Shown one piece after another: positions 7,929-54,738 of a stretch of DNA of 64,000 nucleotides (position 1 is the stretch's first letter; every line of letters begins with the position of its first letter). Made by a program: the position numbers and the translations under genes. Source of the stretch: Amycolatopsis orientalis DSM 40040 = KCTC 9412. Its GTDB lineage: Bacteria; Actinomycetota; Actinomycetes; Mycobacteriales; Pseudonocardiaceae. The notes beneath the pieces are model-generated. The model was not told the DNA's origin, searched no databases, and saw nothing but the letters and a program-made list of their open reading frames with translations. Where the stretch lies: NCBI RefSeq assembly GCF_000478275.1, contig NZ_ASJB01000043.1, positions 124,001-188,000 of the forward strand, in the 5' to 3' direction.

Positions 7929-8014
7929 GGTGAAGGCCTCCAAACCGTTCCAGTTGGCGTTGAGCCGACAACGGTACTGTTCCGATGTCATCCATCCTTG
8001 GAGGAAGCGCACAT

Positions 8015-9496: not shown

Positions 9497-9657
9497 CCGC
9501 TGCCATGAAGGGGCCTTTCATTGCGCCTTTTCATCCTGGTTGGCGGTGCTGACGGTCGCAAGTAGTCGACTAATTGCGAGAGGTCAGGCCCCTCAGGACC
9601 CGGGACACGCCGCCGGTCAGAGCCCACCGCCCCAGTCGTCGGCCCCGAAAGCTCAGG

Positions 9658-9703
9658 GTCGTGAGTGGTAAGTGTCGTTCTAACGACACTTACCACTCAC
9701 GAC
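9658..9703. repeat. Family A intergenic palindrome, copy 2
   Basis: Perfect inverted repeat with 22-bp arms and a 2-nt centre, between the convergent sahH and HTH-regulator genes. All 46 nt are identical to 48422-48467. The 160 nt between the sahH stop and this copy hold an eroded GAAGGGGCCTTTCATT stretch (9506-9522) but no gene. Confidence 0.9.
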
Positions 9704-9730
9704 ACCCCCACCTCGGAACCCAGCGTCCTG

Positions 9731-9934
9731 CGCTGGAAATTCGTGCTGGAAGTGGGTGCTCGCCTTGTGGCCGAGTTCCGCCCCCAATCACGTGAGTGTC
9801 GCTTCCAGTCACGGGTGTGTCCCTCTGGATCACGCGAGTTCGGCACTCGTGGTACCTGGGCGCGAGAGATCTGTGCCCAGAGACGGAACTCGCGTGATGG
9901 GAAGGAGCCAGACTTCCGGTACGAACTTCCGGCG
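9731..9934. repeat. Large imperfect inverted repeat, possible miniature-element relic
   Basis: CGCTGGAAATTCGTGCTGGAAGT region (9731-9753) is the imperfect reverse complement of 9912-9934 (19 of 23 match). Inside are a perfect 13-bp pair (9829-9841 with 9886-9898, core CACGCGAGTTC) and a 6-bp pair (9856-9861 with 9875-9880). No convincing ORF lies in the element. It fills the rest of the 473-nt gap between sahH and the HTH gene. Confidence 0.6.
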
Positions 9935-9969
9935 AGCGACACCAGGGTGAAAAAGGCTCATTGCACGCG

Positions 9970-11043
9970 CTAGCGCCACTCGACCTCGATGCCGGCCAGC
10001 CCCGGTCCGGCGTCGCTGAAGTAGCCGCTGGTCACGCCGCCCATGTCGCACGGCAGCTCCTCGGATTCGACGGGCACGGCGTCGTCGCGCGTCCGGAACT
10101 GCCGGGTGCAGCGGGCGGGCAGCGCGCCGAGCGCGAACTTCAGCTGCACGAGGTAGCTGGAGCACTGGTCCCGCAGCATCCGGAAGTACCCGGGCGACGC
10201 GGTGCCGGAGTCGTCGCGGACCTCGAAGCAGAAGACGTGGATCTCGCCCTCGGCGAGTTTCCGGTCGAAAAGCAGTTCGGTCGCCATCGTCTCGGCCTCG
10301 GCGTTGCGCCGGATCCGCCCGACGCGGCAGCCCTCCGCGGTGATCAGCTCGACGTCGCCGATATGGCAGCCGGGATCACCGTTGTAGACCGTGACGTACC
10401 GGTCCGGGCCGTGGCGGCGCGCCCGGCACACCAGCCGCGTGTGCAGGGCGACCTGCCGGTGCGCGGCGTCGAAGGTGATCGTGTCGTGGACAGCGAGCAT
10501 CTCCAGGTCGGCGTTGTAGCGGTTGGACGACGGATACGCGCCCAGCTCGGCCAGCAGCTGGTCGACGATCGAGCCCATGTCGCCGGACCGGATGTCGTGG
10601 AACGACGCGGCCATCTGGTGCCCGCGCGCCCGCCCGGTCCGCGGCCCGATCAGCACGACGAGCGCGTCGGGGGGCAGTTGCAGCACCGATTCGAGGGCGC
10701 GGACCGCCGGGAGCGCCTTGGGTACCTCCGGCTGGCGCAATCCGCGTTGCCAGTAGCTCAACGTCGACTGTCCGATTTGGACACCGCGGAGGCCGAGGTG
10801 GGCGCGGAGCCGGGCGAGCGAGAGGCCGCGGTAGGCGATCGCCTGCCGCAGCGCATGGTGGAACTCGCCGCTGCGCAGGGCTTCGACCAGCTCTTTGGGC
10901 AGGGCTTCGAGGGGTTGGCGCCGTGTTCCGTCGATCATCGTCGAGGTGTCCACGTTCGATGCACGCTTCCCCGTCGAGAACGCGTCAGCCCCGTTCGAGG
11001 CGTGCTTTCCCGCTGAGAACGCATCAGCACTCTCTCGTGTCAC
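9970..11043 (-). CDS. Helix-turn-helix (XRE-like) transcriptional regulator with uncharacterised C-terminal domain
   Basis: A 357-residue regulator. Residues about 55-130 form an HTH domain (LARLRAHLGLRG...IGQSTLSYWQRGLRQP), followed by a segment ending LQLPPDALVVLIGPR. The remaining 215 residues are a predicted effector domain I cannot name. GTG 11043 is chosen because AAAGGA sits 6 nt upstream. ATG 10938 is an alternative that would drop an N-terminal stretch of two tandem 13-residue repeats (ADAFSxGKxASN). It is divergent from the cysteine peptidase operon. Five GTGAAC half-sites between them suggest it controls itself and that operon. Stop codon 9970-9972 lies next to the large inverted repeat. 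Confidence 0.7.
   Translation of the reverse strand: MTRESADAFSAGKHASNGADAFSTGKRASNVDTSTMIDGTRRQPLEALPKELVEALRSGEFHHALRQAIAYRGLSLARLRAHLGLRGVQIGQSTLSYWQRGLRQPEVPKALPAVRALESVLQLPPDALVVLIGPRTGRARGHQMAASFHDIRSGDMGSIVDQLLAELGAYPSSNRYNADLEMLAVHDTITFDAAHRQVALHTRLVCRARRHGPDRYVTVYNGDPGCHIGDVELITAEGCRVGRIRRNAEAETMATELLFDRKLAEGEIHVFCFEVRDDSGTASPGYFRMLRDQCSSYLVQLKFALGALPARCTRQFRTRDDAVPVESEELPCDMGGVTSGYFSDAGPGLAGIEVEWR
10953..11030. repeat. Two tandem 39-bp direct repeats
   Basis: 10953-10991 and 10992-11030 match at 31 of 39 positions (both start CGTTCGA). At 39 nt they keep the reading frame and add two 13-residue units to the N-terminus of the HTH regulator if translation starts at 11043; otherwise they lie in its 5' leader. 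Confidence 0.8.
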
Positions 11044-11080
11044 CGCTCGTCCTTTCACCAGACCAGTGTGTGCGCTGAGC

Positions 11081-11243
11081 GTGAACACTGCGGAACGTTC
11101 ACGTTAGCAGCGCACTGTGAACACTACGTCCCCCGTTCGGGGTGGTTGACCCCGGAAGAGTGACCGTTCCGGGGTGTGGAAACGCCCCGGAACGGTCCGT
11201 TCCGCCGAGTGCCCATCTTGCTCTCCGTGAACCTTCTGTTCAC
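11081..11243. promoter_or_regulatory. Cluster of GTGAAC half-sites between divergent genes (candidate operators)
   Basis: GTGAAC occurs at 11081-11086, 11117-11122 and 11227-11232. Its complement GTTCAC occurs at 11097-11102 and 11238-11243. They form GTGAAC-N10-GTTCAC 38 nt upstream of the HTH gene start and GTGAAC-N5-GTTCAC 44 nt upstream of the peptidase start. The two outer sites near the HTH gene extend to GTGAACACT. Binding by the neighbouring HTH protein is inferred. The remainder of 11044-11287 holds no gene. Confidence 0.55.
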
Positions 11244-11287
11244 CGTTGTGACCACATTGGTTCGCCATGGTGACCAGGAGGCCCGTC

Positions 11288-11878
11288 GTGCCTGTGTTCT
11301 CGAGCAGGGTTTGCGCCGCGGGCGCCGTGACGCTCGCGGCGTGGCTCGCGGTCCAGACCCCGGCGAGCGCGCTGCCCTCGCCGCCGGTCCGTCAACTCCC
11401 CGCCTACCAGAACCCCATCGTCATGCAGGTGCAGGAAAAGTCGCAGTGGTGCTGGGTGGCTTCCGGGAACACCATCGCCGCGCACCACGGCGTGACCGTC
11501 GCCCAGAACGAATTCTGCCGGATCGCCCACGACGAGCGGCGCCCGGACTGCGCGGACCGCCCCGGCACGCTGGGCGACGTCCGCCGCGCGTTCGGCAAGC
11601 TCGGCTTCTCGGCCCCGGGGAACTACGTCAAGGGACGCATCACGTACTCCGCCGTGCAGGCCCAGACCGGCGCCGGTCAGCCGGTGCAGACCCGGGTCGG
11701 CTGGGCCGCGGGCGGCGGCCACATGCACGTCCTCTACGGCTACGACGCCGGCCGGAAGTGGGTCTCGTGGGGGGATCCACTGCCCACCGGCAACCGCTAC
11801 AACTGGTCGACCTACGACTACTACGCCGGCAACCGGTCCTTCACCTGGACCCACACCCTCACCGGGATCCGGCGATGA
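11288..11878 (+). CDS. Secreted papain-like cysteine peptidase (C70/C39-like)
   Basis: A 196-residue protein: signal peptide (SRVCAAGAVTLAAWLAVQTPASA), then a papain-like fold. The active-site block is KSQWCWVASGNTIAAHHG with the catalytic Cys in QWCW. The His comes in GGGHMHVLYGYD and the final acidic/polar element in WVSWGDPLP. This matches PF12385-type papain-like proteases; the natural substrate is unknown. GTG 11288 has AGGAGG 6 nt upstream, a far better start than ATG 11267, which would place the Shine-Dalgarno inside the gene. The stop overlaps the start of the next gene (ATGA), so the two are translationally coupled and presumably act together outside the cytoplasm. Confidence 0.8.
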   Translation: MPVFSSRVCAAGAVTLAAWLAVQTPASALPSPPVRQLPAYQNPIVMQVQEKSQWCWVASGNTIAAHHGVTVAQNEFCRIAHDERRPDCADRPGTLGDVRRAFGKLGFSAPGNYVKGRITYSAVQAQTGAGQPVQTRVGWAAGGGHMHVLYGYDAGRKWVSWGDPLPTGNRYNWSTYDYYAGNRSFTWTHTLTGIRR

Positions 11879-12642
11879 GCGCGCGGCGGATCCTCGGGCT
11901 CGCCGGCCTGGTCGCGATGGTCCTGCTGATGTCGGCGCCCGGAGCGCGCGCGGACCAACTGTCGAGTGAAGATCTCGCGGCCGCGAAGGCGGCTGCCGAC
12001 GATCCCACGCTGCGTGCCGAGATCGGCCGCTTCTTCATCCAGACGAGTGGATCGGGTCGGGCGCCGTCGGTCAGCGTCGTCGACGAAACCTTCCCGGTTT
12101 ACGAGCTTTCGAGGGATTTCGTCGCCGGTGACGGCGCGGTCGCCGGGCAACTCGCGTACGTCGCCGTCCCGGTGACGGCGTCCGACGGGCAGACCGCGAC
12201 CCTCTGGTCGGTCCGCGGTGACGACGGCGCCTGGCGGGTCGGCAACATCGCGTCGGGCGACCGGGAGAGCGCGCTGGCCCGGCGGCTGCCCGCAGGCGCG
12301 ACGCTGCTCCACGAACCCCAGGTCGACGCCTGGTACGCGCTGCGCGACGGCCGGGTGACGCTGCTCGACGCGGGCGCCGGCGGCTACGCGGCCGGTACGT
12401 CGGCCACGCTCGCTGAGTACCAGAAGACGGTCTCCGGCCGGTACGGCGCGATGCTCGCGGGCTCGCCCTACGCCCAGGAAGGCAAGGCCGGCGGTTACAA
12501 CGCCCAGGTGATGCCTCGCGGCGACGGCGGTCCCGCGCCCGACGCGCAGGACACCGGCTTCGTCCCGCTGCTGATCTTCGGCGGGCTGCTCCTCATCGGT
12601 ATCGCCGGCTTCTTCCTGCACTCGAAGCGGCGCGTCCCCTAG
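11875..12642 (+). CDS. Exported, C-terminally membrane-anchored protein of unknown function
   Basis: A 255-residue protein starting at an ATG that overlaps the peptidase stop. It has a signal peptide (RRILGLAGLVAMVLLMSAPGARA) and an extracytoplasmic region of about 195 residues with no family I recognise. A short glycine-rich linker leads to one C-terminal hydrophobic helix (FVPLLIFGGLLLIGIAGFFL) with a basic tail HSKRRVP. The topology is that of a surface-anchored factor. Tight coupling to the cysteine peptidase suggests it is a propeptide-like inhibitor, anchor or substrate for that enzyme; this is an inference from position only. No catalytic motif is visible. Confidence 0.65.
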   Translation: MSARRILGLAGLVAMVLLMSAPGARADQLSSEDLAAAKAAADDPTLRAEIGRFFIQTSGSGRAPSVSVVDETFPVYELSRDFVAGDGAVAGQLAYVAVPVTASDGQTATLWSVRGDDGAWRVGNIASGDRESALARRLPAGATLLHEPQVDAWYALRDGRVTLLDAGAGGYAAGTSATLAEYQKTVSGRYGAMLAGSPYAQEGKAGGYNAQVMPRGDGGPAPDAQDTGFVPLLIFGGLLLIGIAGFFLHSKRRVP

Positions 12643-12713
12643 CGGACCGGTGGGCCGGACGTGAGCTGACCCGTCTGGCCCGCCGGTCGACCACCGCGTC
12701 ATAGGGTGTCGGT

Positions 12714-13355
12714 GTGGGAAAACTCGTGGTGATCGAAGGTTTGGACGGCGCCGGGAAGCGGACGCTCGCCGACGCGCTGACCGGTGCGCTGAACGCCGCC
12801 GGAGCGAGCGTCACGTCGATCGCGTTCCCGCGCTACGGCGAAAGCGTGCACGCCGACCTCGTGCACGAGGCGCTGCACCGCGGGCACGGCGACCTCGCCG
12901 ACTCCGTGTACGGCATGGCGATGCTCTACGCGCTCGACCGCCGGGGCGCGGCGGACGAGATCCGCGCCCGGCTCGACGATCACGACGTCGTGCTGCTCGA
13001 CAGGTACGTCGCGTCGAACGCGGCGTACGGCGCCGCCCGGCTCCACCAGGGCGCGGACGGTGAGTTCGTCCGGTGGCTCCGCGGCCTGGAGATCGACCGG
13101 TTCGGGCTGCCGGTGCCCGCCGCGCATCTGCTGCTGCGGGTCACCGCCGACGTCGCCGCCGAACGCGCGCAGCGCCGAGCGGAGGGCGACGCCGCCCGTG
13201 CCCGGGATTCCTTCGAGACCGACGACGCGCTCCAGAAGCGGTGCTCGGTGGTCTACGACGAACTCGCCGCGGCAGGCTGGCTCGCGCCTTGGCACGTCCT
13301 CGACGGCGTCGCCGGTGTCGATGCCGCCGCGCTGGCCGCCACCCTTCGCGTTTAG
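12714..13355 (+). CDS. tmk: Thymidylate kinase (dTMP kinase)
   Basis: A 213-residue cytoplasmic enzyme that phosphorylates dTMP to dTDP for DNA synthesis. The P-loop is EGLDGAGKRT, with Arg before Thr as in the M. tuberculosis enzyme. DVVLLDRYVASNAAYGAAR carries the DR motif, and a lid region (AERAQRRAEGDAARARDSFE) follows. GTG 12714 gives the expected N-terminus. In M. tuberculosis tmk directly precedes mtrA; here the demethylation cluster (13.4-20.9 kb) is inserted between them. The stop codon (TAG 13353-13355) lies in the outer part of a family B palindrome, so the end of the gene was probably set by that repeat. Confidence 0.95.
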   Translation: MGKLVVIEGLDGAGKRTLADALTGALNAAGASVTSIAFPRYGESVHADLVHEALHRGHGDLADSVYGMAMLYALDRRGAADEIRARLDDHDVVLLDRYVASNAAYGAARLHQGADGEFVRWLRGLEIDRFGLPVPAAHLLLRVTADVAAERAQRRAEGDAARARDSFETDDALQKRCSVVYDELAAAGWLAPWHVLDGVAGVDAAALAATLRV

Positions 13356-13410
13356 TCCTCTGGATGCGGTACTTGCGCGCGCAACTACCGCATTCAGTCC
13401 TCTAGATGCG
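13356..13410. repeat. Family B palindrome, copy 1 (rearranged)
   Basis: CTGGATGCGGTACTTGCGC (13360-13378) pairs with 13379-13397 with two mismatches. Outside, TCCTCTAGATGCG (13398-13410) repeats TCCTCTGGATGCG (13356-13368) directly rather than inverted, unlike the other copies. It separates convergent tmk and Rieske genes and contains the stop of the Rieske gene. Confidence 0.8.
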
Positions 13411-14497
13411 TGAGTAGCCAGGTGTGGAACTCGCCGATGTGGTGCTCCGAGGGCATCAGGACCCCGCCTCCGGCGTAGGCGCGGGACGCCATCGCGGGCT
13501 GGCAGCGTTCACAAGCGTCGAAGTCCTGCTCGTTGACGCGGTGGAACAACTCCACCGACCTCGACACGTCCCGGCCGGACTCGACGACCTCCTTCGAGTA
13601 CAGCCAGTCGCATTCCACGACCGTCCGGTCCGGCGCGAGCGGGTACATCCGGTGGAAGATCACGTGGTCCGGCACCAGGTTCACGAACACCTGCGGCCGG
13701 ATGGTGATCGCGTAGTACCGCCTGTCCTGCTCACTCGCGACGCCGTCGAGCCGCGCGAAGCCCGAACCACCGTCGATGGTGAACCCGTCGACGTCCTCGC
13801 CGAATTCGGCGCCGTGCCCGACGAAGTACTGTGCCGCGTATCCATCGGCGAACTCGGGCAGCACCTCGGTCAGCTCGGGGTGGATCGTCGCGCAGTGGTA
13901 GCACTCCATGAAGTTCTCGACGATCAGCTTCCAGTTCGCCTTGACGTCGTAGGTGATCCGGCGCCCGACCGAAAGCCCGTCCAGGCCGTAGCGCTCGATC
14001 GACTCGACGTCGCCCAGCCGCTCGCGGACCGCGCCGACGACGTCGGCCTCGAACGACGGCGGGTCCGCGGCGAGGCAGACCCACGCGTAACCCAGCCATT
14101 CCCGCAAGCGCACGGAGTGCAGTCCGTAGCCGGTGCGGTCGATGTCCGGCAGGCTCGCCAGGTTCGGCGCCGCGATCAGCTTCCCGTCGAGCCCGTACGT
14201 CCACGCGTGGTAGGAGCACTGGAACGCCCGTTTCACCGTGCCCGACTCCTCGGTGCACAGCCGCGCGCCCCGATGACGGCAGACATTCAAGAACGCTCGC
14301 AGCCCGCCGTCCCGGCCGCGGCTGACGATGACGCTCTCGCGTCCGATTCGGACGGTCCGGAAGTCTCCCGCCGAGGGCAGATCCGCCGAACGTACCGCGC
14401 AGAACCACTTCCGCTCGAAGAGCTTTTCCTGCTCGGCCGCGAAGATCCCGGGATTCGTGTAGTAGCCGCCCGCCAGTGTCGGGATGAGACTCGTCAT
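13394..14497 (-). CDS. Rieske-type ring-hydroxylating/N-demethylating oxygenase, alpha subunit (GbcA-like)
   Basis: A 367-residue oxygenase. The Rieske [2Fe-2S] site is CRHRGARL...CSYHAW (about residues 80-105). The mononuclear iron site is [15 protein letters not shown] (about 200-215), the N-x-x-E-x-Y-H-x4-H pattern of choline, carnitine, stachydrine and glycine-betaine monooxygenases. ATG 14497 overlaps the stop of the upstream flavoprotein gene (ATGA), so it is the last gene of a three-gene coupled operon. Partners that oxidise dimethylglycine and sarcosine favour glycine betaine as substrate; other quaternary amines remain possible. Electrons probably come from the Rieske ferredoxin and reductase encoded at 19.3-20.9 kb. 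The last residues (HLED) and stop are formed by a palindromic repeat. Confidence 0.85.
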
Positions 14498-15639
14498 CTC
14501 GGGACTCCGGCGAAGCGGGCCGGGTCGAACAGGGCGATCGGATGCGCGGTGGCGCCGTCCACCACCAGATCGGCGAGCACCTCGCCGACGACGGGCACGA
14601 ACTTGAACCCGTGCCCGGAAAATCCGCAGGCGATCACCACGCGTTCGTGGGTGGGATGACGGGAGATGACGAAATGCTCGTCCGGGGTGTTCGTGTACAT
14701 ACAGGTCGCCGCGCGCAGGAAGGTCCCGGGCAACGTCGGCATCTTCCGGCCGACGAACGCGGAGATCTCGGCGACCTCTTCGGCGTGCACCGTCCGGTCG
14801 ATGGTCTCCGGCGTACACGTCTCGCCGCCGCGGAAGAACGCGACCTTGACGCTCCCGGCGTCGTCGTGTGACGGGAAGCCGTAGAACTGGCGGCCGTTCT
14901 CGCCCTCCCAGACATAGATCGGATGCCGTTCGGAGCGGAACGGCTCGGCCCCGCCCGAAGGCGCGAACCAGTACTGGACCTGGCGTTCGATGGTGAAGTC
15001 GACGCCGAGTTCGGTGAGCAGTTCCGGGGCCCAGGCGCCGGGGCAGATCACCAGTTGCCCGGCGGTGTGGAAGTTCTGCGACGTCCTGACCCGGACGCCG
15101 GTGGACGTCTGGTGCCACGAAAGGACCTTCTCCTCGTGGTGCAGCTCGGCTCCGGCCCGCGCGGCCAGCTGTAAATGTGCCGCCACACTGCCTTCCGGCA
15201 CCACGAATCCGGCGTTCTCCTCGTACAGCGCGATTTCGTCCTCGGCCGGATTCATCGTCGGGAACCGGCGCCGGACCTCGGCGGCGTCCAGTATCTCGTG
15301 CGGCAGACCCCATTTCCGTGCGCTCAGCAGGCTTCCCGACACCGTCCGGGAATCCGGGCCGCCGAGCATGATCCCGCCGCAGCGGGTGAAGATCTCGCGG
15401 CCGGAGTCGCGTTCGATCCCATCCCAGAGTTCGTGCGCGCGCACCAGCAGCGGGACGTACGCCGGGTCCTCGAAGTACGCCTGCCGGGTGACCCGCGAGC
15501 CGCCGTGGCTGGACCCGAGGCTGTGCACCGGCGCGAACTGGTCTATGCCCAGCACCCGCTGCCCGCGCCGGGCGAGCCGGTACGCGGCCGCGCTGCCCAT
15601 CCCGCCGAGGCCGATGACGATGACGTCGTATGCGCTCAT
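14494..15639 (-). CDS. Monomeric sarcosine oxidase / N-methyl amino acid oxidase family flavoprotein
   Basis: A 381-residue FAD enzyme of the MSOX/SolA family, which oxidatively removes an N-methyl group to give formaldehyde and hydrogen peroxide. The N-terminal dinucleotide fold is [23 protein letters not shown] sarcosine-oxidase-type SSHGGSR follows. The Cys that anchors FAD covalently is in [17 protein letters not shown] (about residue 305-320), and a C-terminal [11 protein letters not shown] completes the active site. Length matches the family (about 385). Both ends overlap neighbours by ATGA. In this operon sarcosine is the expected substrate, giving glycine. N-methyltryptophan or another N-methyl amine cannot be excluded. 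Confidence 0.85.
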
Positions 15640-18074
15640 GCGGCACTCCTGAGCCGGGTCATGCCGGGGTCGAACAGCGGTTCCCGGGCCACGATGGCGG
15701 GGATCCGCTCGCCGAAGTACTCGATCTCCAGCGGCGTGCCCGGCATCGATGACCCGGCGGGAAGCCACGCGTACGCGATGTTCTTCCCGACGCTGTAGCC
15801 GTACGCCGCACTGGTGACGTAGCCGACGGGACGGCCTTCGGCGTACACCGGTTCCTTCCCGAGTACGACGGAGTACGGATCGTCGATGGTGAGACAGGTC
15901 AGCTTCCTCGTGACGGTGTCTTCCGAGCGGCCCGCCAGCGCGTCCCGGCCGATGAAGTAGCCCTTGTCCATCCGCACGGCGAAGCCGAGTCCGGCCTCGA
16001 ACGGGTCGTGCTCCGCGGTGACGTCGGTGCCCCACAGGCGGTAGCCCTTCTCCAGCCGCATGCTGGAGAACGCGTCGCGTCCGGCGGCGATGACGCCGTG
16101 CTTTCGCCCGGCTTCCCAGAGCGTGTCCCACAGCTCGCGCCCGAGGTCGGCGCTCGTGTACAGCTCCCAGCCCAGTTCGCCCACATAGGACAGTCGCATC
16201 GCGGTCACCGGGACCTGGCCGATGTAGGCCTGTTTCGCCTTGAAGTAGCCCATGGCCTGGTGTGAGAAGTCCGTTGTGGACAGTGGTTGCAGCACCGCCC
16301 TCGCGAGCGGTCCCCACAGGCCGATACAACAGGTTCCCGGGGTGGTCTCGTGGATCTGCGCGGCGCCGTCACCGGGCAGATGCCGCCGCAGCCAGTCGAT
16401 GTCGATGGCGCTGTTGACCCCGACCTGGAACCGCTCGGCGCCGAGCCTGGCCACGGTCAGGTCGCCGCGCACGCCGCCGTCCTCGTCGAGCAGAAGGGTG
16501 TAGGTGACCGAACCGGGTTTCTTGTCGAGCTGGTTCGTGGTCATGGTCTGCAGGAACGGCAGCGCGCCGGGGCCGGTGACCTCCACGCGTTTCAGCGATG
16601 TCATGTCGAACATCGCGGCCCGCTGCCGCGCGACCAGTGCTTCGGCGCCGCCGATCGGTGACCAGTACCGCGCGGCCCAGTCGTTGCGGGCGGGGATGAG
16701 GTCGACCTCGGGCAGGTTCGCGTTCGCCTCGTACCAGTGCGGCCGTTCCCAGCCGCCCGCTTCGAGGAAGAACGCGCCGAGTTCCACTTGCCGCTCGTAG
16801 AACGGGCTCGTGCGCAGCGGCCGCGGTTCTTCCATGGGCTGCAACGGATGGACGATGTCGTAGACCTCGACGAAACTCCGGCAACTCCGTGTCATGACGT
16901 AGTCCGGGGCCAGCTGCACCCGCTCGAACCTGGCGAGGTCACAGCCGTGCAGATCCGTGCCGGGCTGACCGTCCACCAGCCACCGCGCCATCGCCCGCGC
17001 GACCCCGGCCGAATGCGTGATCCAGACGGCTTCGGCGACCCAGAACCCGTCGAGACCGGGATGTTCGCCCAGGAGCGGCATCCCGTCCGGGGTGAACGAG
17101 AACAGGCCGTTGATGCCCTCTTCGACCTTGGTCTCGCCGAGCGCGGGCAACAGGCCGACGGCGGCGGCCCAGGACGTCTCGAAGTCCGCCGGGGTGAACG
17201 CCAGTTCCGACGGCATCCCCTCTCCGGCACCGATCTCCTTGGCGGGCAACGGCATCGGCCGGTGTCCGTAGGCGCCGATACCGATCCTGTCGACGTGCTC
17301 ACGGAAGTAGAGATCGGCGTCCTGGTGCCGCAGGATCGGCCCGGTGGCCTCCTCGGTCACACCGGCGAGGGACGGCAGGGGACTGGTGCGCGCGTACTGA
17401 TGCGCCATCGGGACCAGCGGGATCACGAGGTCCACCAGTTCGCCGAGCAGCGGGCCCCACATCCCGGCGCAGGAGAGCACGACGTCCGCGCGGAAGCTCC
17501 CGGTGCCGGTGGTGACTCCGGTGACCCGCCCGCCCGCGCTTTCGATGCCGACGACCTTCTGGCGCGCGAGGAACTTCGCGCCGCGCCCGATCGCGCGACG
17601 AGCCTGCGCCTCGGCCGCACGCAGCGGGGCGGCCAGGCCGTCGGACGGGATGTGGAAGCCGCCGAGCACCTTGGCCGGATCGAGCAGCGGATGCAGCGCG
17701 GCGCACTCGTCCGGATCGACAAGCCTGCTTTCGACCCCTGACGCCGTCGCCCAGCCGTGCCGTCGGTTCAGATCGGCGAGCCGTTCCGGCGTCGTGGCCA
17801 CCTCCAGCCCGCCGACCGGCCGGAAGCACGGCTTCCCGTCGAGGTCGAGCGCGCCGTACTTGGCGACGGTGTACCGGGCGAACCCGGTCATCGCGCGGCA
17901 GCCGGTGGTCTGGAAGACCAGGCCGGGCGCATGCGAACTGGACCCGCCGGTGGTGAACAGGTCGCCCTGCTCCAGCACGGTGAGATCGGTCCAGCCGCGT
18001 TCGGTCAGTTCGTCGGCGATCGCGCAGCCGACGATACCGGCGCCGATCACGACCACACGGGGTCCGGGGGACAT
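15636..18074 (-). CDS. Dimethylglycine oxidase / sarcosine dehydrogenase-like FAD-GcvT fusion
   Basis: An 812-residue two-part enzyme. The N-terminal 430 residues are a DAO-type FAD domain ([21 protein letters not shown]). They include [12 protein letters not shown], whose His is the usual covalent FAD attachment site in dimethylglycine and sarcosine dehydrogenases. The C-terminal part is a GcvT/aminomethyltransferase-like folate domain ([33 protein letters not shown]). The family demethylates dimethylglycine and passes the carbon to tetrahydrofolate. ATG 18074 has AGGAGG about 10 nt upstream. It is first in the operon; about 70 nt before the start lies a TGTTGCG-N24-AGCAACA site, the same as near the divergent IclR gene. 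Confidence 0.88.
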
Positions 18075-18142
18075 GGTGAGGGAACCTCCTGCCTGCCCGT
18101 GGGTGTCCACAGTGGACATGCGGGCATCGGGGTGACAGGCGT

Positions 18143-18180
18143 TGTTGCGGATGAGGCGCGGTGTTCCGTCTTCAGCAACA
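18143..18180. promoter_or_regulatory. Candidate IclR operator in front of the demethylation operon
   Basis: TGTTGCG (18143-18149), 24 nt, AGCAACA (18174-18180). Position is 69-106 nt upstream of the dimethylglycine-oxidase-like gene. Spacing and sequence match the site at 19194-19231. The rest of 18075-18239 shows no gene. Confidence 0.6.
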
Positions 18181-18239
18181 AAGTGCGGCACGTGCGGGCG
18201 CGCTGTCAAGAGCCGAAACGGTCGGCTGCTTCAACCCGC

Positions 18240-18300
18240 GCGCGCCATGAAAGGTCCTTTCCTTGCAAATTTCGCAAGGAAAGGACCTTTCATGGCGCGC
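18240..18300. repeat. Family C palindrome, copy 1
   Basis: Perfect 27-bp arms (18240-18266 and 18274-18300) around AAATTTC. The inner part CCATGAAAGGTCCTTTCC is shared with 53146-53198. It lies just after the IclR gene (read on the minus strand) and may end its transcript. Confidence 0.88.
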
Positions 18301-18327
18301 TGGAGGGGTGTGACAGGACCGGTCACC

Positions 18328-19113
18328 TCACTCGGTGAAGTACCCCAGCTGAGCCGAGAGGTCCGCGGAAGCCTCGGTCAGCGGCCGGACGATCTGCCGC
18401 ACCCGCTGCTTCGAAAGCCGGTACGACGGACCGGACGCGCTCATCGCCGCGACGACGTCGCCGCCCGGCCCGCGCACCGGCACCGCGACCGCGTGCATCC
18501 CCAGCTCCAGCTCCTCGAAACAGGCCGCGTACCCGTCCTCGGCCACGCGCTCCAGTTCGGCGGTCAGCTCATCCGGATCGACCGTGGTCCGCGGGGTGAA
18601 CTGTTCGAGTTTCCGCCGGAGCAAACGTTTGCGCTCGACGTCTCCCATGTACGCGAGCAGGACCTTCCCGCTGGACGTCGCGTGCAGCGGGGTGCGCTGG
18701 CCGGTCCAGTTCTGCGTGGTGATCGCGGCCGAGCCGCGGGCCTGGCTGATGTTGATCGCGACGCCGTCGTCGGCGATCGCGATGTTGACCGTCTCGCCCA
18801 GGGTTTCCGCCAGTCCCTGGCAGGTCTGCCTGCCCAGTTTCGCCAGGTCCATCCGGCCGGTGGCGGCGCCGGCGAGCCGGACGACGCCGAAGCCGATCGC
18901 GTATTTGCCGCGCTCGCCGAGCTGCTCGACGAGGCCGCGGGATTCCAGGACGCTCAGCAGCCGGGAAGCGGTCGACTTGTGCACGCCGAGTTCGCCCGCG
19001 ATCTCGGTGATCCCCGTTTCCCCGTTGCGTGCCAGCAGTTCCAGCACACTGATCGCGCGGTCGACGGACTGCACCTGGCTGGGTGTTGCGTTCCCCGCGT
19101 CCTGGTTCCGCAT
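18328..19113 (-). CDS. IclR-family transcriptional regulator of the demethylation cluster
   Basis: A 261-residue regulator with an N-terminal winged HTH (SVDRAISVLELLARNGETGITEIAGELGVHKSTASRLLSVLESRGLVEQ, residues about 15-65) and the IclR effector domain (HATSSGKVLLAYM, GPSYRLSKQRVRQI). Such proteins bind as dimers or tetramers and respond to small aromatic or aliphatic effectors. ATG 19113 has no Shine-Dalgarno, and one TGTTGCG-type box (19116-19122) lies directly before it, so the message may be leaderless or the protein autoregulated. It sits between the two transcription units of the cluster, each preceded by the same box pair, which makes it their likely regulator. The effector (betaine, dimethylglycine or sarcosine) is inferred. 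Confidence 0.88.
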   Translation of the reverse strand: MRNQDAGNATPSQVQSVDRAISVLELLARNGETGITEIAGELGVHKSTASRLLSVLESRGLVEQLGERGKYAIGFGVVRLAGAATGRMDLAKLGRQTCQGLAETLGETVNIAIADDGVAINISQARGSAAITTQNWTGQRTPLHATSSGKVLLAYMGDVERKRLLRRKLEQFTPRTTVDPDELTAELERVAEDGYAACFEELELGMHAVAVPVRGPGGDVVAAMSASGPSYRLSKQRVRQIVRPLTEASADLSAQLGYFTE

Positions 19114-19115
19114 GA

Positions 19116-19231
19116 CGCAACAGTAGCCGTTTCGCCCGCATCCGTTCGGCTGAGTGGGCGAATCCCTTGACGCACCGGCCCCTCGGGGGCGATTGTTGCG
19201 CAGAGCACGACCCGTCTCGTAATACGCAACA
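19116..19231. promoter_or_regulatory. Candidate IclR operators between iclR-type gene and ferredoxin gene
   Basis: Three copies of one 7-mer: CGCAACA at 19116-19122, TGTTGCG at 19194-19200, and CGCAACA at 19225-19231. The last two form TGTTGCG-N24-CGCAACA, 36 nt upstream of the ferredoxin start; the same layout occurs at 18143-18180. Confidence 0.62.
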
Positions 19232-19266
19232 TCAACAAACCGTCGGTCCTTTCCCCGGAGGCCCCG

Positions 19267-19584
19267 ATGATCCGTGCCTGCTCCGTCTCCGAACTTCCCG
19301 AGGGTGAGGCTCTCCGTGTGGAGGGCCCGGTTCCCGTTTCGGTCTTCCACGCCGAAGGCGGCTATTACGCCCTGGACGACACCTGCACCCACCAGGACGC
19401 GTCGCTCGCCGACGGCTGGATCGAGGGCTGCTTCGTCGAATGCCCGCTGCACGCCGCGCGGTTCGACCTGCGGACCGGCGTCCCGGCCTGCCTGCCCGCG
19501 AAAGACGCCGTACGCACCTACCCGGTCGTCGTCGCCGACGGCGTGATCTACGTGGACACCGAGGCGCGCCAGGAAGTGGCTTGA
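19267..19584 (+). CDS. Rieske [2Fe-2S] ferredoxin (electron carrier for the oxygenase)
   Basis: A 105-residue soluble Rieske ferredoxin of the kind used by multicomponent dioxygenases. The cluster ligands are CTHQDASL (Cys, His) and CPLHAARFD (Cys, His), spaced as in BphF/CarAc-type ferredoxins. GGAGG 5 nt before the ATG supports the start. It is divergent from the IclR gene and the first gene of a unit with the reductase downstream. It most likely carries electrons from that reductase to the Rieske oxygenase at 13.4 kb. NirD-like small subunits share the fold but no nitrite reductase is nearby. Confidence 0.88.
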   Translation: MIRACSVSELPEGEALRVEGPVPVSVFHAEGGYYALDDTCTHQDASLADGWIEGCFVECPLHAARFDLRTGVPACLPAKDAVRTYPVVVADGVIYVDTEARQEVA

Positions 19585-19593
19585 GTGTCTGTG

Positions 19594-19710
19594 GTGAACC
19601 CGCGTCCGCGATCGACGTCGGCAGGACGCTGCCTGGTCTTCCGCCTCTCGATGGCAGATCAGGGCGTCCTGCCACCGCGATAGCGGGGCCTTCGGCAGGG
19701 GCGGGTTCAC
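19594..19710. repeat. 117-bp nested imperfect inverted repeat inside the ferredoxin-reductase unit
   Basis: GTGAACCCGC (19594-19603) pairs with 19701-19710, GGCAGGACGC (19620-19629) with 19664-19673, and CTGCC (19629-19633) with GGCAG (19653-19657). It fills most of the gap between the two genes. It may be a small inserted element or an RNA structure that tunes reductase expression. Confidence 0.6.
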
Positions 19711-19730
19711 GCGTTCGGTCCCTTTCCGAG

Positions 19731-20894
19731 GTGCGACTTCAGCTCCGCCGACAGGCGCTGAGAACCGTCGCCGTCGTCGGGACGTCGCTGGCGGGACTCC
19801 GGTCGGCACAGGAGCTGCGCGCGCGGGGTTTCGGCGGACGGCTGGTGATGATCGGCGCGGAACCGCCGTATGATCGGCCGCCGCTGTCGAAGGATTTCTT
19901 GCTGGGCAAGGTTTCCGCCGACGATCTCGCCCTCGCCGGGCAAGCCGGTCTCGACGCGCTCGAGGCCGAATGGCACCTCGGCGTGCGTGCCGAAAAGCTC
20001 GGCGGCGACGGCGTGGTGCTCGACGACGGCACCACGATCGCCGCGGACGGCTACGTCATCGCGACCGGTGCGGTCGCCAGAACCCTTGGCGCGGCAAGGA
20101 ATCTGAAAGGCGTTCACACCTTGCGGACGCTCGCGGACGCCACCTCGCTGAAACGCGACCTCGCGGCCGGTCCTTCTTCGGTGGTCGTCATCGGAGCGGG
20201 ATTCATCGGCGCGGAGGTCGCGTCCGCGTGCCGCCTGCTCGGCAACGACGTCACCGTGATCGAGGCGACGCCCGTGCCGCTCGCGTCGGTCGTCGGCCCG
20301 GAAATGGGCGCGGTGTGCGGTGCGCTGCACGCCGAGAACGATGTCCGGCTGCTCGCCGGCGTTCCCGTCGCCGGTCTCACCGGGACCGATCGCGTGACCG
20401 GAGTGCGGCTCGCGGACGGGAGGGAGATCCCGGCGGACCTCGTCGTCGCCGGAGTGGGCGCGCGACCGGTCACTGACTGGCTGACCGGTTCCGGGCTCGC
20501 CGTCGACGACGGGGTGCTGGTCGATTCCGGCTGTGTCACAGCGAATCCCCGGGTGATCGCGGTGGGTGACGTCGCGCGGTACCGCTGCCCCCTGCGCGGC
20601 AGGCGGATCCGCGCCGAACACTGGACGGCCGCGAACGACCAGGCGGGCGTGGCGGTCGCCAATCTGCTCGCCGGTTCGACCGTCACGCATTTCGCCCGGC
20701 ACGGTTACTTTTGGTCCGATCAGTACGGACACCGGATCCAGTTCGCCGGAGTGGCCACCGAAGACGTCCGGATCGTCGAGGGCGATGTCACGTCGAAGCG
20801 TTTCGTGGCCGCCTTCCACCGCGATGACGTCCTGACCGGCGTGTTCGCGATCGACTCACCGCGCCTCTTCACCAGGCTCCGGCGTTCCCTCTAG
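19731..20894 (+). CDS. FAD-dependent ferredoxin reductase
   Basis: A 387-residue flavoprotein of the ferredoxin/rubredoxin/putidaredoxin reductase family, which moves electrons from NAD(P)H to a small iron-sulfur protein. The FAD-binding fold is TVAVVGTSLAGLRSAQELRARG, then PPYDRPPLSK. The NAD(P)-binding fold is VVVIGAGFIGAEVASACRLLG. The second FAD block is VIAVGDVARY and the reductase C-terminal domain is HYFWSDQYGHRIQFAG-like. The start is uncertain: GTG 19731 gives a normal N-terminus. A TTG at 19581 overlapping the ferredoxin stop would add 50 residues encoded by the inverted repeat, which look non-native. Its partner is the adjacent Rieske ferredoxin. Confidence 0.87.
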   Translation: MRLQLRRQALRTVAVVGTSLAGLRSAQELRARGFGGRLVMIGAEPPYDRPPLSKDFLLGKVSADDLALAGQAGLDALEAEWHLGVRAEKLGGDGVVLDDGTTIAADGYVIATGAVARTLGAARNLKGVHTLRTLADATSLKRDLAAGPSSVVVIGAGFIGAEVASACRLLGNDVTVIEATPVPLASVVGPEMGAVCGALHAENDVRLLAGVPVAGLTGTDRVTGVRLADGREIPADLVVAGVGARPVTDWLTGSGLAVDDGVLVDSGCVTANPRVIAVGDVARYRCPLRGRRIRAEHWTAANDQAGVAVANLLAGSTVTHFARHGYFWSDQYGHRIQFAGVATEDVRIVEGDVTSKRFVAAFHRDDVLTGVFAIDSPRLFTRLRRSL

Positions 20895-21005
20895 GGGCCG
20901 AAGACCCTACTCGGATGGAGCAATTTGCCCGATTCGATGATCTTTCTGGTGGTCACATCGCCGGGTCGCGCGCTCGCGCGGGGAAACTAGTGCGAACATA
21001 GCTTT

Positions 21006-21683
21006 ATGAAGGCACGTGTTCTGGTCGTCGACGACGACCCTGCTCTCGCGGAGATGCTCACCATCGTGCTGCGTGGGGAGGGGTTCGACACAGCCGTCGT
21101 GGCCGACGGCTCACGAGCGCTGCCCGCGCTTCGTGAGCTGAAACCGGACTTGGTCCTCCTCGACCTCATGCTGCCCGGGATGAACGGCATCGACGTCTGC
21201 AAGGCGATCCGGGCCGAGTCCGGGGTGCCGATCGTCATGCTCACCGCCAAGAGCGACACCGTGGACATCGTCCTCGGGCTCGAGTCGGGTGCCGACGACT
21301 ACGTGGTCAAGCCGTTCAAGCCGAAGGAACTCGTGGCCCGCGTCCGTGCCCGGATGCGCCGTACCGAGGCCGAGCCCGCCGAGTCGCTGACGATCGGCGA
21401 TCTCGCGATCGACGTCCCCGGTCACGAGGTGACCAGGGAGGGCAAGGCCATCCCGCTGACCCCGCTCGAGTTCGACCTCCTGGTCGCGCTCGCCCGCAAG
21501 CCGCGTCAGGTGTTCACCCGCGAGGTGCTGCTGGAGCAGGTGTGGGGTTACCGCCACGCCGCCGACACCCGCCTGGTGAATGTGCACGTCCAGCGGCTGC
21601 GCTCGAAGGTCGAGAAGGACCCGGAACACCCCGAGGTGGTGTTGACCGTTCGCGGCGTCGGGTACAAGGCCGGCCCGCCGTGA
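21006..21683 (+). CDS. mtrA: Two-component response regulator MtrA
   Basis: A 225-residue OmpR-class regulator. The receiver domain has the acidic pocket VVDDD and phospho-acceptor Asp53 in LVLLDLMLPG, plus VMLTAK and Lys in VVKPFKP. The winged-helix domain (about 130-225) ends with HVQRLRSKVEKDPEHPEVVLTVRGVGYKAG. MtrA is essential or near-essential in many actinobacteria and controls cell-wall hydrolases, dnaA and osmotic-stress genes. It is followed 7 nt later by mtrB. A GTCACATCG stretch (20954-20962) upstream resembles reported mycobacterial MtrA sites but this is weak evidence of autoregulation. Confidence 0.98.
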   Translation: MKARVLVVDDDPALAEMLTIVLRGEGFDTAVVADGSRALPALRELKPDLVLLDLMLPGMNGIDVCKAIRAESGVPIVMLTAKSDTVDIVLGLESGADDYVVKPFKPKELVARVRARMRRTEAEPAESLTIGDLAIDVPGHEVTREGKAIPLTPLEFDLLVALARKPRQVFTREVLLEQVWGYRHAADTRLVNVHVQRLRSKVEKDPEHPEVVLTVRGVGYKAGPP

Positions 21684-21690
21684 TCACCCC

Positions 21691-23406
21691 ATGAGTGGAC
21701 GTTCGGCCAAGCTCGCCCAAACCACGATGCGCCGTCTCCGGCGCATCGTGGTTTTCGTGCGCGGTAAGGCCGTCGCCTCCAACGAGCTGTGGCGGCATTC
21801 GCTGCAGTTCCGGGTCACGGTGTCCACGCTGGCCCTCTCGGCCGCCGTGGTGTTCGTGCTGGGCATGGTGCTGCAGAACCAGATCACCGAACGGCTGCTC
21901 GAGACCAAGCAGAACGCGGCGATCGCGCAGACGAGGGCGGTCGTCGAGACCGCGGCCAGCGAACTGGTCGGCGTCGGCGCCGAAACGCCCGAAGCGATGG
22001 TCGCGCGGCTGAACAACGCGCTGAAGAAGATCTCCAGCACGACGACGTCGCAGGACGGCGCCGGGGCCGCGGGCACCTTCGAACCGGTGCTGGCCGCCGG
22101 TGGCCGCGATCAGTCGATCCGGCCGGTGGCCGCCGGTCCGTATGACCGGGTGCCGGTGCGGCTGCGTCAGTTCGTGGAGACCGAACAGGTCAGCTACCTG
22201 ATGCACACGGTCACCGAGGCCGACGGCGGCAAGACGACGTATCTGATCGTCGGCGCCCCGGTGACCACGATGATCAACCCGCTCCAGCTCTACCTGCTCT
22301 ATCCGCTCACCAGCGAGCAGAACACCGTCTCGACCGTGCAGAACACGCTGCTGGTCGGCTGTCTCGTGCTGCTGCTCCTGCTGGCCGGGATCACGAACCT
22401 GGTCACCCGGCAGGTGGTCCGGCCGGTCCGGCAGGCCGCCGCGGCGGCCGAGCAGTTCGCGGGCGGCGCGCTGGACCAGCGGCTCGCCGTGCTCGGCGAG
22501 GACGATCTGGCCAAACTCGCCGTGTCCTACAACGAGATGGCCGCGAGCATCCAGCGGCAGATCCGGCAGCTGGAGGACTTCGGCGGGCTGCAGCGCCGGT
22601 TCACCTCCGACGTCTCGCACGAACTCCGCACCCCGCTGACCACCGTCCGGATGGCCGCCGACGTGCTGCACGCGTCCCGCGAGCAGTTCCCGGCGGGGCT
22701 CGCCCGCTCCACCGAGCTGCTGGTCGACGAACTCGACCGGTTCGAAGCCCTCCTCGGCGACCTGCTGGAGATCAGCAGGCTCGACGCGGGTGTCGAAGAG
22801 CTGTCGGCCGAGCTGATCGACGTCCGGCCGATCGCGACCAGGGCCGTCGAACAGGTCCGGGTGATCGCGGGCAACGCCGGCAGCGCGGTCGAGCTGGTGC
22901 TGCCGGAGGAAGAGGCGCCCGCCGAGGTCGACGCGCGCCGCGTCGAGCGGATCCTGCGCAACCTGCTGGCCAACGCGGTGGACCACAGCGAAGGAAACCC
23001 GGTGGTGCTGACACTGGCGGTCAACGAGACCGCGGTCGCCATCACCGTGCGCGACCACGGCGTCGGTCTCCGCCCCGGCGAGGCGGAACTGGTGTTCAAC
23101 CGGTTCTGGCGCGCCGACCCGTCCCGCAACCGCCGGACCGGCGGCACCGGACTCGGCCTCGCGATCAGCCAGGAGGACGCGCGCCTGCACGGCGGCGTGC
23201 TCGACGCGTGGGGCGAGACCGGCCACGGCGCCTGTTTCCGGCTCGTGCTGCCGAGGCGGCAGGACACCCCGATGGGGGAGAGCCCGCTGATCCTGCCGCC
23301 GCCCGATCACAAGGCGAGCGACCCGCACGGTTCGTCGTCCGGACTGCTCGAAGTCCGTCCGGCGCCCGACGCGATCCTCGCCGAGCCCGAGGAGGTCGGC
23401 CGGTGA
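21691..23406 (+). CDS. mtrB: Sensor histidine kinase MtrB
   Basis: A 571-residue membrane kinase that phosphorylates MtrA. It has two membrane segments (about 45-65 and 215-235) enclosing an extracytoplasmic sensor of about 150 residues. A HAMP domain (TRQVVRPVRQAAAAAEQFAGG) and the phospho-acceptor His in FTSDVSHELRTPLTTVR follow. The ATP-binding boxes are NLLANAVDHSEGN, VRDHGVGLRPGE and GGTGLGLAISQ. An acidic/proline tail follows. Start ATG 21691, 7 nt after mtrA. Codons 10-21 contain a perfect 16-bp hairpin. The stop overlaps the lpqB start (GTGA). Confidence 0.97.
   Translation: MSGRSAKLAQTTMRRLRRIVVFVRGKAVASNELWRHSLQFRVTVSTLALSAAVVFVLGMVLQNQITERLLETKQNAAIAQTRAVVETAASELVGVGAETPEAMVARLNNALKKISSTTTSQDGAGAAGTFEPVLAAGGRDQSIRPVAAGPYDRVPVRLRQFVETEQVSYLMHTVTEADGGKTTYLIVGAPVTTMINPLQLYLLYPLTSEQNTVSTVQNTLLVGCLVLLLLLAGITNLVTRQVVRPVRQAAAAAEQFAGGALDQRLAVLGEDDLAKLAVSYNEMAASIQRQIRQLEDFGGLQRRFTSDVSHELRTPLTTVRMAADVLHASREQFPAGLARSTELLVDELDRFEALLGDLLEISRLDAGVEELSAELIDVRPIATRAVEQVRVIAGNAGSAVELVLPEEEAPAEVDARRVERILRNLLANAVDHSEGNPVVLTLAVNETAVAITVRDHGVGLRPGEAELVFNRFWRADPSRNRRTGGTGLGLAISQEDARLHGGVLDAWGETGHGACFRLVLPRRQDTPMGESPLILPPPDHKASDPHGSSSGLLEVRPAPDAILAEPEEVGR
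21719..21754 (+). promoter_or_regulatory. Perfect hairpin inside the 5' coding region of mtrB
   Basis: AAACCACGATGCGCCG (21719-21734) and its exact complement (21739-21754) flank a TCTC tetraloop and end in TTTT. It is terminator-like but lies 28 nt inside mtrB, in a coding context (TTMRRLRRIVVF). It could limit mtrB relative to mtrA expression. Confidence 0.6.
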
Positions 23407-25133
23407 AGCGGCTGCTGACCCTGCTGGCGGTGTTCCTGCTGGTCGCAGGCTGCGCGAACATCCCGCTCGAATCCCAGCCCGTCGTCGTCTCCGGGGACAA
23501 ACCCCCGCAGGCACCGGTGGACGTCCCCGAACCGCAGGCCGGGATCGACTCGCTGACCGTCACCCGCCAGTTCATCCGCAGCTCCGCGACCCCGGGGACG
23601 GGGAACGACAACGCGCGGGTCTACCTCGACGACGAAGCCCGGCGCAACTGGAAGCCGTCGCCCGGACTGACGATCATCGACGACACCTTCGGCACGGTCT
23701 ACGACACGTCGTCGCCGCAGGGCAACCCGGACGAGCAGCTGGTGAACGTCCGCGGGTTCAAACTCGGCAACCTGAGCCCCGACAGCGCGTTCATCCCGCT
23801 GAAGGCCGAGTACTCGCAGCAGTTCAAGGTCCGGAAGCAGCAGAACGGCCAATGGCGGATCGTGGATCCGCCGCAGGAACTCGTCATCACCGACGAGGAT
23901 TTCTCGGTCAACTACTTCCGGGTGCCGATCAGCTTCTACTCGCCCGATTCGGGCACCTTCGTCCCCGACCTCCGGTACGTCGCGGCGAAACCGCAGTCCG
24001 GATTGCCGGGCCGGGTGATGGACCTGGTGCTGCAGGGGCCGTCGGAAGGGCTGAAGGGCGCGGTCAAGGACCTGCTCGGGGACCAGGTCACCACCGAGAC
24101 CAACGTGCGCAGCACGGACGACGGGACCCTGGACGTCGCGTTGACCGGCGTCGGCGGGGCCAGTAACGCGGACCGGAGCCTGATCGCCGCGCAGATCGTC
24201 CTCTCGCTGCAGACGGTGACGCTGAGCCGGATCCGGCTGCTGGCCGACGGCACCGCGCTGGTGCCGGACCACGAATACTGGCGTGCCAGCGAACTTCCCG
24301 AGTACAACGCGGACATCGCGCCCAATTCGGGCCTGCGCGGGCTGATGACCGTGAACGGCCGGGTCCGGTCGCTCGGCGACGGCGCCCCGGTCGGCGGACC
24401 GGCGGGCAACGGCGGCTACAAGGTCGTCAGCGCCGCGCAGTCCGTCGACGGGAACCGGCTCGCGGTCGTCGAAGAGCGCGACGGCAGGCAATGGCTCCGG
24501 GTCGGTGACCTCAACCGCGACCTCGACTCGGTGGACCTGTTCGGCGGCAGCCTGAGCCGTCCGACCTGGCGGCCGATCGCACGCGGCAGCGGCGGGGTTT
24601 CGGGCGAGGTCTGGACGGTCGTCGACCACAACACCGTCGCCAGGGTCACGCTGGCCGCGGACGGGCGCTGGGTGAAGGCGGGCGTCGACGCGACCATGCT
24701 CACCGGCCTCGGTCAGATCACCGAACTCCGGCTTTCGCGCGACGGATCGCGGCTGGCCGCGGTGGTCAACGGGCAGCTGGTGATCGCCTCGATCGTGCGG
24801 ACGGCGGACTCGGTGGCGCTGCGGGCGCCGCGCTCGCTTCAGGAGCGTCAGCTCAAGGACGTCGTCGACGTCGACTGGGCGACGCAGGACCACCTGATCG
24901 TCGCGACGTCGTCCAGCTCCCTGCCGGTGGTCAAGGTGCCGCTGGACGGGCAGCGGATGGACACCTTCAACAGCTCGAACCTGACCCCGCCGGTCCACGG
25001 CGTCACCGCGGCGCCGAGCAGGCCGAACCTGGTCGCGGACGCGGGTGGGCTGTGGGTCGCCTCGGAACTGGGTGAGGTCTGGCGGCCGCAGGCGCATACG
25101 GTGACCGACGCGGACCCGTTCTACCCGGGCTGA
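23403..25133 (+). CDS. lpqB: Lipoprotein LpqB, accessory factor of MtrAB
   Basis: A 576-residue lipoprotein with signal peptide and lipobox LLVAGC (Cys17). A GerMN-like domain (about 180-330) and a C-terminal beta-propeller region (about 340-576) follow. In mycobacteria LpqB interacts with the extracytoplasmic part of MtrB and affects MtrA phosphorylation, cell envelope and motility. GTG 23403 overlaps the mtrB stop by 4 nt, so it is coupled within the conserved mtrA-mtrB-lpqB operon. A strong palindrome 62 nt after the stop probably ends the unit. Confidence 0.95.
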   Translation: MKRLLTLLAVFLLVAGCANIPLESQPVVVSGDKPPQAPVDVPEPQAGIDSLTVTRQFIRSSATPGTGNDNARVYLDDEARRNWKPSPGLTIIDDTFGTVYDTSSPQGNPDEQLVNVRGFKLGNLSPDSAFIPLKAEYSQQFKVRKQQNGQWRIVDPPQELVITDEDFSVNYFRVPISFYSPDSGTFVPDLRYVAAKPQSGLPGRVMDLVLQGPSEGLKGAVKDLLGDQVTTETNVRSTDDGTLDVALTGVGGASNADRSLIAAQIVLSLQTVTLSRIRLLADGTALVPDHEYWRASELPEYNADIAPNSGLRGLMTVNGRVRSLGDGAPVGGPAGNGGYKVVSAAQSVDGNRLAVVEERDGRQWLRVGDLNRDLDSVDLFGGSLSRPTWRPIARGSGGVSGEVWTVVDHNTVARVTLAADGRWVKAGVDATMLTGLGQITELRLSRDGSRLAAVVNGQLVIASIVRTADSVALRAPRSLQERQLKDVVDVDWATQDHLIVATSSSSLPVVKVPLDGQRMDTFNSSNLTPPVHGVTAAPSRPNLVADAGGLWVASELGEVWRPQAHTVTDADPFYPG

Positions 25134-54635: not shown

Positions 54636-54738
54636 AGCGCGCAGCCTAGGACACGGGACGGCGAACCGATCCCTGAGACACCGTGCCAACGCCCACGATC
54701 TGGGCTACGGTTTTTCGACCAGACATGGGGAGAGACAC

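Follow-up and report, generated by a model that had tools for sequence, protein, structure and literature searches.

The putative betaine, dimethylglycine and sarcosine demethylation cluster of Amycolatopsis orientalis carries three copies of one operator, each made of two abutting palindromes, and these operators are probably read by an autoregulated IclR-family repressor of the pathway that is encoded in the same cluster. Comparison of sequences across the genus, family and class supports the operators themselves and shows that they are conserved, have four boxes, sit in predicted promoters and go together with pathway genes and orthologues of the IclR protein.

Gene content of the cluster

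The window, by which we mean the whole stretch of 64,000 nucleotides analysed, contains an iclR gene (18328-19113, minus strand) for a protein of 261 aa, the proposed repressor. Its HTH_IclR and IclR_C domains score 57.7 and 134.7 bits against Pfam cut-offs of 22 and 24, which places it in the IclR family. Also on the minus strand are a dimethylglycine-oxidase-type gene (DMGO; 15636-18074; domains DAO, FAO_M, GCV_T and GCV_T_C), for which the start at 18074 was picked via a GGAGG-like site (the gene finder gives 18056), an FAD oxidase gene (14494-15639; DAO) of the monomeric-sarcosine-oxidase type by similarity, and a Rieske oxygenase gene (13394-14497). For the last of these the best-scoring named model is GbcA (NF058607), although its 211.2 bits lie below the cut-off of 670. 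The plus strand carries genes for a Rieske ferredoxin (19267-19584) and a ferredoxin reductase (19600-20894; start tentative, gene finder 19848), after which come mtrA, mtrB and lpqB. On the basis of these gene families and their grouping, the cluster is assigned to the betaine/dimethylglycine/sarcosine demethylation pathway.

Two further features were observed nearby. Between iclR and DMGO lies a long palindrome (18247-18302; GCGCGCCATGAAAGGTCCTTTCCTTGC... and its mirror). The genome contains 56 forward and 65 reverse matches to its 18-base core, with 0 for the control, so that it is a repeated palindromic element; it may also serve as the iclR terminator. At 11327-12642 there are two neighbouring genes, probably for secreted proteins of 183 and 255 aa, and a scan of the second frame gave no Pfam or NCBIfam match.

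Three operators in the window

An earlier note on this DNA, made from the sequence alone, had placed TGTTGCG (18143-18149) and AGCAACA (18174-18180) before the dimethylglycine-oxidase operon, and TGTTGCG (19194-19200) and CGCAACA (19225-19231) before the ferredoxin gene, with an identical spacing of 24 nt. All of this was confirmed. Operator A (18143-18180, TGTTGCG GATGA GGCGCGG TGTTCCG TCTTC AGCAACA) precedes DMGO, and operator B (19194-19231, TGTTGCG CAGAG CACGACC CGTCTCG TAATA CGCAACA) lies between iclR and the ferredoxin gene. The paired-box pattern is exact and far above chance: TGTTGCG-N24-NGCAACA has three listed matches in the window (A on one strand, the symmetric B on both), compared with 0 in each of 100 shuffles. 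A fifth box, noted as touching the iclR start, is indeed present (CGCAACA, 19116-19122), but it is not solitary, having a partner TGTTGCG at 19084-19090. The cluster therefore holds three pairs, not two. This third pair, operator C (19084-19122, TGTTGCG TTCCC CGCGTCC T GGTTCCG CATGA CGCAACA), lies over the iclR start and has 25 nt between its boxes, one extra central base relative to A and B.

With a matrix trained on 15 site representatives from outside Amycolatopsis, A, B and C (29.9, 45.9 and 31.1, C being scored with one central base omitted) are the top three scores in the window, the fourth being 5.8. The earlier report that the pair is absent before the OpuC-type operon held as well, as neither hexamer, TGTTGC or GCAACA, was found upstream of it at 54400-54760.

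Four-half-site architecture

The earlier note had read the boxes as two distant half-sites bound by an IclR tetramer. Comparison supported the idea in part, in that the demethylation cluster has a common operator that is kept in orthologous clusters, co-occurs with the IclR orthologue and is not spread across the genome, but the 24-nt interior contains two more, weaker half-sites. To describe the interior, 81 distinct TGTTGC-N26-GCAACA sites were reduced to 24 representatives differing at more than 8 of the 24 interior positions. Since the sites were picked by their outer boxes, invariance of those boxes is built in, while the interior played no part in the choice. Across the 24 divergent sites, interior positions 13-18 match CGCAAC at 3.73 of 6 bases, as compared with 1.49 in shuffles (z = 14). 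This conserved, symmetric interior rules out two distant half-sites as the sole unit. The presence of weak inner half-sites in the gap argues instead that the unit is two abutting palindromes, suited to two dimers, with the full form TGTTGCG-N5-CGCAAC-NN-GTTGCG-N5-CGCAACA. Palindrome centres are 19 bp apart in the 38-bp form and 20 bp apart in site C. The consensus, TGTTGCG-YATWR-CGCAACn-nGTTGCG-YWATR-CGCAACA, comprises two adjacent 19-bp palindromes, and a distant site found at the class level (L265) is near-perfect: TGTTGCG TATAA CGCATCG CGTTGCG TAGTA CGCAACA.

The available text of the survey by Suvorova and Gelfand (2021; PMC8222616), which covers IclR motifs in 94 orthologous groups, gives these as GTTYCRYW3RYGRAAC and describes tandem sites 18-22 bp apart, mainly 19-21, read as tetramer sites. 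The operator fits this known tandem arrangement: each palindrome ends in GTT...AAC around an A/T-rich 3-base centre (consensus GTTGCGYATWRCGCAAC), as in subgroup GTT-11-AAC of group 1, and the centres are 19 bp (site C, 20 bp) apart. It differs from the subgroup consensus given there (GTTYCRY) in having G for the pyrimidine at half-site position 4. That G is fixed by the way the sites were selected, and close variants mostly retain it.

Conservation in relatives

A match to the IclR protein was found in 79 of 80 genus genomes at E 1e-40 or better, and in 215 of 297 family genomes at E 1e-50 or better. Box spacing was surveyed in 80 loci (1.16 Mb) fetched by the IclR protein alone, many of them closely related. 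These hold 41 convergent hexamer pairs with a gap of 0-60, of which 35 have gap 26, 3 have gap 27 (the spacing of site C) and 3 have other gaps. Among the controls, no class of opposite-order pairs exceeded 2, and the largest classes of same-direction (tandem) pairs numbered 9 (gap 54) and 5 (gap 25).

Conservation in orthologous clusters, on which the earlier note had made its motif depend, was borne out by the scan of relatives. Counting only the starts that could be tested, with the iclR locus covered in 65 genus genomes, all 38 ferredoxin starts in Amycolatopsis have a site scoring at least 20, as do 33 of the 42 DMGO starts and 47 of the 62 iclR starts, the score being below 20 at the other 9 DMGO and 15 iclR starts. 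Site C taken by itself scores at least 20 in 50 of 62 genus genomes. Six genus genomes (G001, G003, G011, G027, G053 and G057) have neither B nor C at the iclR locus, with the orthologue retained. Since site C overlaps the first codons of iclR, codon choice can be examined there: the alanine codon is GCA in all 49 genomes with N/DAT at that place (53 when counted per locus, with repeats), the tripeptide being missing at the iclR start in the remaining 13 of 62. Across 20 loci, 3.6% of alanine codons are GCA. This usage indicates that it is the DNA sequence of site C that is maintained.

Beyond the genus, a 14-base pattern occurs in 139 of 390 family genomes, and its reversed control in 8. The class-wide search matched 18 of 394 genomes, which include the own genome and some of the same family, versus 3 for the reversed control; ten loci were fetched. 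A related pair of these (L264 and L267) was rejected as operators, since the matches fall within an unrelated gene or at its end and are taken as chance (interior of L264, -6.3). Pseudonocardiaceae and a small number of other actinomycetes have the operator before ferredoxin, DMGO and other betaine-pathway genes.

Specificity and further targets

Many stray genome hits would, according to the earlier note, have counted against the motif, and they turned out to be few. The 24-nt form with up to two mismatches has 16 forward matches in the whole genome (9.06 Mb), versus 13 for the reversed control; the matrix separates these into B (45.9), A (29.9), one other site above 8 (C82:172809, 22.5) and 13 below 8. 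We take C82:172809 as probably chance, as it sits within a different inverted repeat with no betaine gene recognised nearby. No convincing operator besides A, B and C was found in the 9.06-Mb genome. Among 713 other gene starts in the 80 loci, a score of 20 was reached by 4 in the 38-bp form and by 0 in the 39-bp form. When inspected afterwards, all 4 proved to precede pathway-compatible genes: another DMGO-like gene (L109, with 55% identity across the matched part), one for S-(hydroxymethyl)mycothiol dehydrogenase that scores above cut-off (L087), one for a sarcosine-oxidase-type FAD amine oxidase (L049), and a short serine-hydroxymethyltransferase-like frame (L075, 6075-6728), which is below cut-off, its family match skipping the middle of the model.

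The outer pattern alone was not accepted as proof of an operator, because places in G324, G257 and G387, and some in G247 and G169, match it yet have a poor interior or hairpin character. G387 has, in seven places, a near-perfect palindrome repeat (TGTTGCGTCGCA...TGCGACGCAACA) that fits the outer pattern and not the interior, as judged from two scored copies.

Further candidate targets come from loci chosen for holding the pattern (L128-L177 and L258-L280), which for that reason give no estimate of frequency. In one survey of neighbouring genes, the labels used were DMGO, MSOX, Fdx, IclR and mtr. DMGO and ferredoxin genes adjoin operators in many genera, and ferredoxin genes elsewhere in Amycolatopsis genomes also bear the operator (L158-L168). 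At two loci (L166, position 7549, and L177, position 7440), an S-(hydroxymethyl)mycothiol dehydrogenase gene scoring above cut-off diverges from a ferredoxin gene across one operator. As oxidative demethylation releases formaldehyde, a formaldehyde-detoxifying enzyme under the common operator makes sense. Other genes beside operators score below cut-off, namely a GbcA-like oxygenase (L159), a ProP-like transporter (L169), a betaine-aldehyde-dehydrogenase-like gene (L263), and a choline-dehydrogenase-like GMC gene with an adjoining IclR gene (L259, to which L260 and L262 look alike). The choline dehydrogenase gene of L158 was excluded as a target, as it lies upstream of the site.

Position of the operator in predicted promoters

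The predicted ferredoxin promoter (TTGACG-18-GATTGT, plus strand) has its -35 at 19167-19172 and its -10 at 19191-19196, the last three bases of which are inside operator B. For DMGO (TTGACA-18-CACTTT, minus strand), the predicted -35 is at 18204-18209 and the -10 at 18180-18185, with the last base inside operator A. At iclR, a predicted -10 (TACTGT, 19120-19125, minus strand) ends six bases 5′ of the ATG, again with its last three bases inside operator C; the arrangement TANNGT-N6-start recurs in all of 62 genus genomes, and no TTGAC -35 was seen for this promoter. At about 19145-19165, some 30-50 nt 5′ of iclR and near GATTCGCCCACTCAGCCGA, a block without a TTGAC -35 is strongly kept across the genus and is possibly the site of another regulator.

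The same geometry recurs in 87 non-redundant promoters, out of 265 rows scoring at least 20. TTGAC lies 26-32 nt 5′ of the operator in 42 of 45 ferredoxin promoters and 27-30 nt 5′ of it in 33 of 42 DMGO promoters, a count that retains four windows (L035, L048, L066 and L188) with a shifted register of overlapping boxes. On the far side of the operator, within 60 nt, TTGAC occurs in 0 of the 87. With TTGAC 26-32 nt upstream in most promoters, the operator would span -10 to about +30, as expected of a repressor site, and on the predicted promoters it overlaps both the -10 and the start region.

The proposed regulator

We infer that the neighbouring IclR-family protein binds A, B and C and represses both arms of the pathway together with its own gene. 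Two dimers, i.e. a tetramer, would occupy each operator on one face of the DNA, and a pathway compound would release the repressor. Repression is favoured because protein on the operator would cover -10 to about +30 and so block RNA polymerase. That the same protein binds but mainly activates, or is a dual regulator like BhcR, is unlikely. BhcR is the nearest named NCBIfam model to the IclR protein of the window (NF045644; 187.2 bits, under the cut-off of 350) and, in the part of its report available (PMC11323563), is described as an activator, with possible repression of its own gene. However, the BhcR site is proposed there to lie upstream of the -35, whereas the operators here begin at the -10 of predicted promoters.

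The preferred reading, repression by the neighbouring IclR protein, is also consistent with co-occurrence. Among genomes G080-G350, the motif is present in 71 of 190 with the orthologue and in 2 of 81 without it (hand tally; p = 5e-11, kinship ignored); in both exceptions the interior does not resemble that of the operator. Part of this association may stem from the presence of the target genes. IclR paralogues, 45-48% identical, adjoin the operator in L162 and L167, so that cross-talk is possible and another IclR protein may bind. We consider it quite improbable that the operator belongs to another regulator, such as a paralogue, with the neighbouring protein not its main reader. Such a view could appeal to the IclR proteins, 45-46% identical, next to the operator in L162 and L167 and to more distant ones in L258-L260 and L262, but at E 1e-40 or better the IclR protein has just one match in the own genome, and it is the start of the neighbouring iclR gene that operator C overlaps. 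That the inverted repeats form RNA hairpins or represent mobile palindromes, instead of being protein sites, is barely credible: long palindromes do account for some exact pattern matches elsewhere (G324, G257 and seven in G387), but their interiors are poor (-30.0, -20.9, and -2.1 and -12.6 for two scored copies in G387), the inner boxes of the operators are degenerate, Rfam has 0 matches at gathering score in 7000-24000, and each of A, B and C shares its first bases with a predicted -10, so that a stem would hardly be transcribed; an RNA element was rejected on these grounds.

Comparison with known systems

In Pseudomonas, betaine and dimethylglycine breakdown is controlled by GbdR, an AraC-type activator of an unrelated family. 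A literature search that took in few subscription journals found no regulator described for this pathway in actinomycetes, nor any published regulon for this IclR protein and operator, surveys being represented there by their main text. Neither betaine nor sarcosine appears as a word in the main text of the IclR survey (PMC8222616). As far as the available text of each report goes, GylR of Streptomyces clavuligerus (PMC9732521) is similar in that it comes from an actinobacterium, belongs to the IclR family and represses a catabolic operon as well as its own gene, with 18-bp palindromes. It differs in pathway (glycerol), in sequence, and in its dimeric state in solution. BhcR of Paracoccus denitrificans (PMC11323563) is likewise of the IclR type, and a tetrameric DNA-binding form has been suggested for it; besides its activating role and the promoter position of its site, it differs in its ligand, glyoxylate. 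NdgR of Streptomyces coelicolor (PMC4340878), an actinobacterial IclR-type regulator with a palindromic motif, was considered and set aside, since the motif described is a different one (15 bp, of the GTCCA...GGAC kind) and belongs to an amino-acid and sulphur regulon.

Implications

A broader and more speculative possibility, which we regard as doubtful at present, is that of one old actinobacterial regulon in which a single four-half-site operator serves betaine-aldehyde oxidation, betaine import, every demethylation step and mycothiol-dependent formaldehyde detoxification. If this were true, the combination of strong outer and weak inner half-sites would make the intact tetramer necessary for binding, and a ligand that splits the tetramer into dimers would free all promoters together. 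The operator offers an exact sequence code, open to testing, for a pathway whose control in actinomycetes did not turn up in the literature searched. From it one can predict, even outside the main cluster, which of the Rieske ferredoxins, oxygenases and formaldehyde dehydrogenases serve betaine breakdown, and the IclR protein becomes a candidate for sensing a betaine-type compound in Amycolatopsis.
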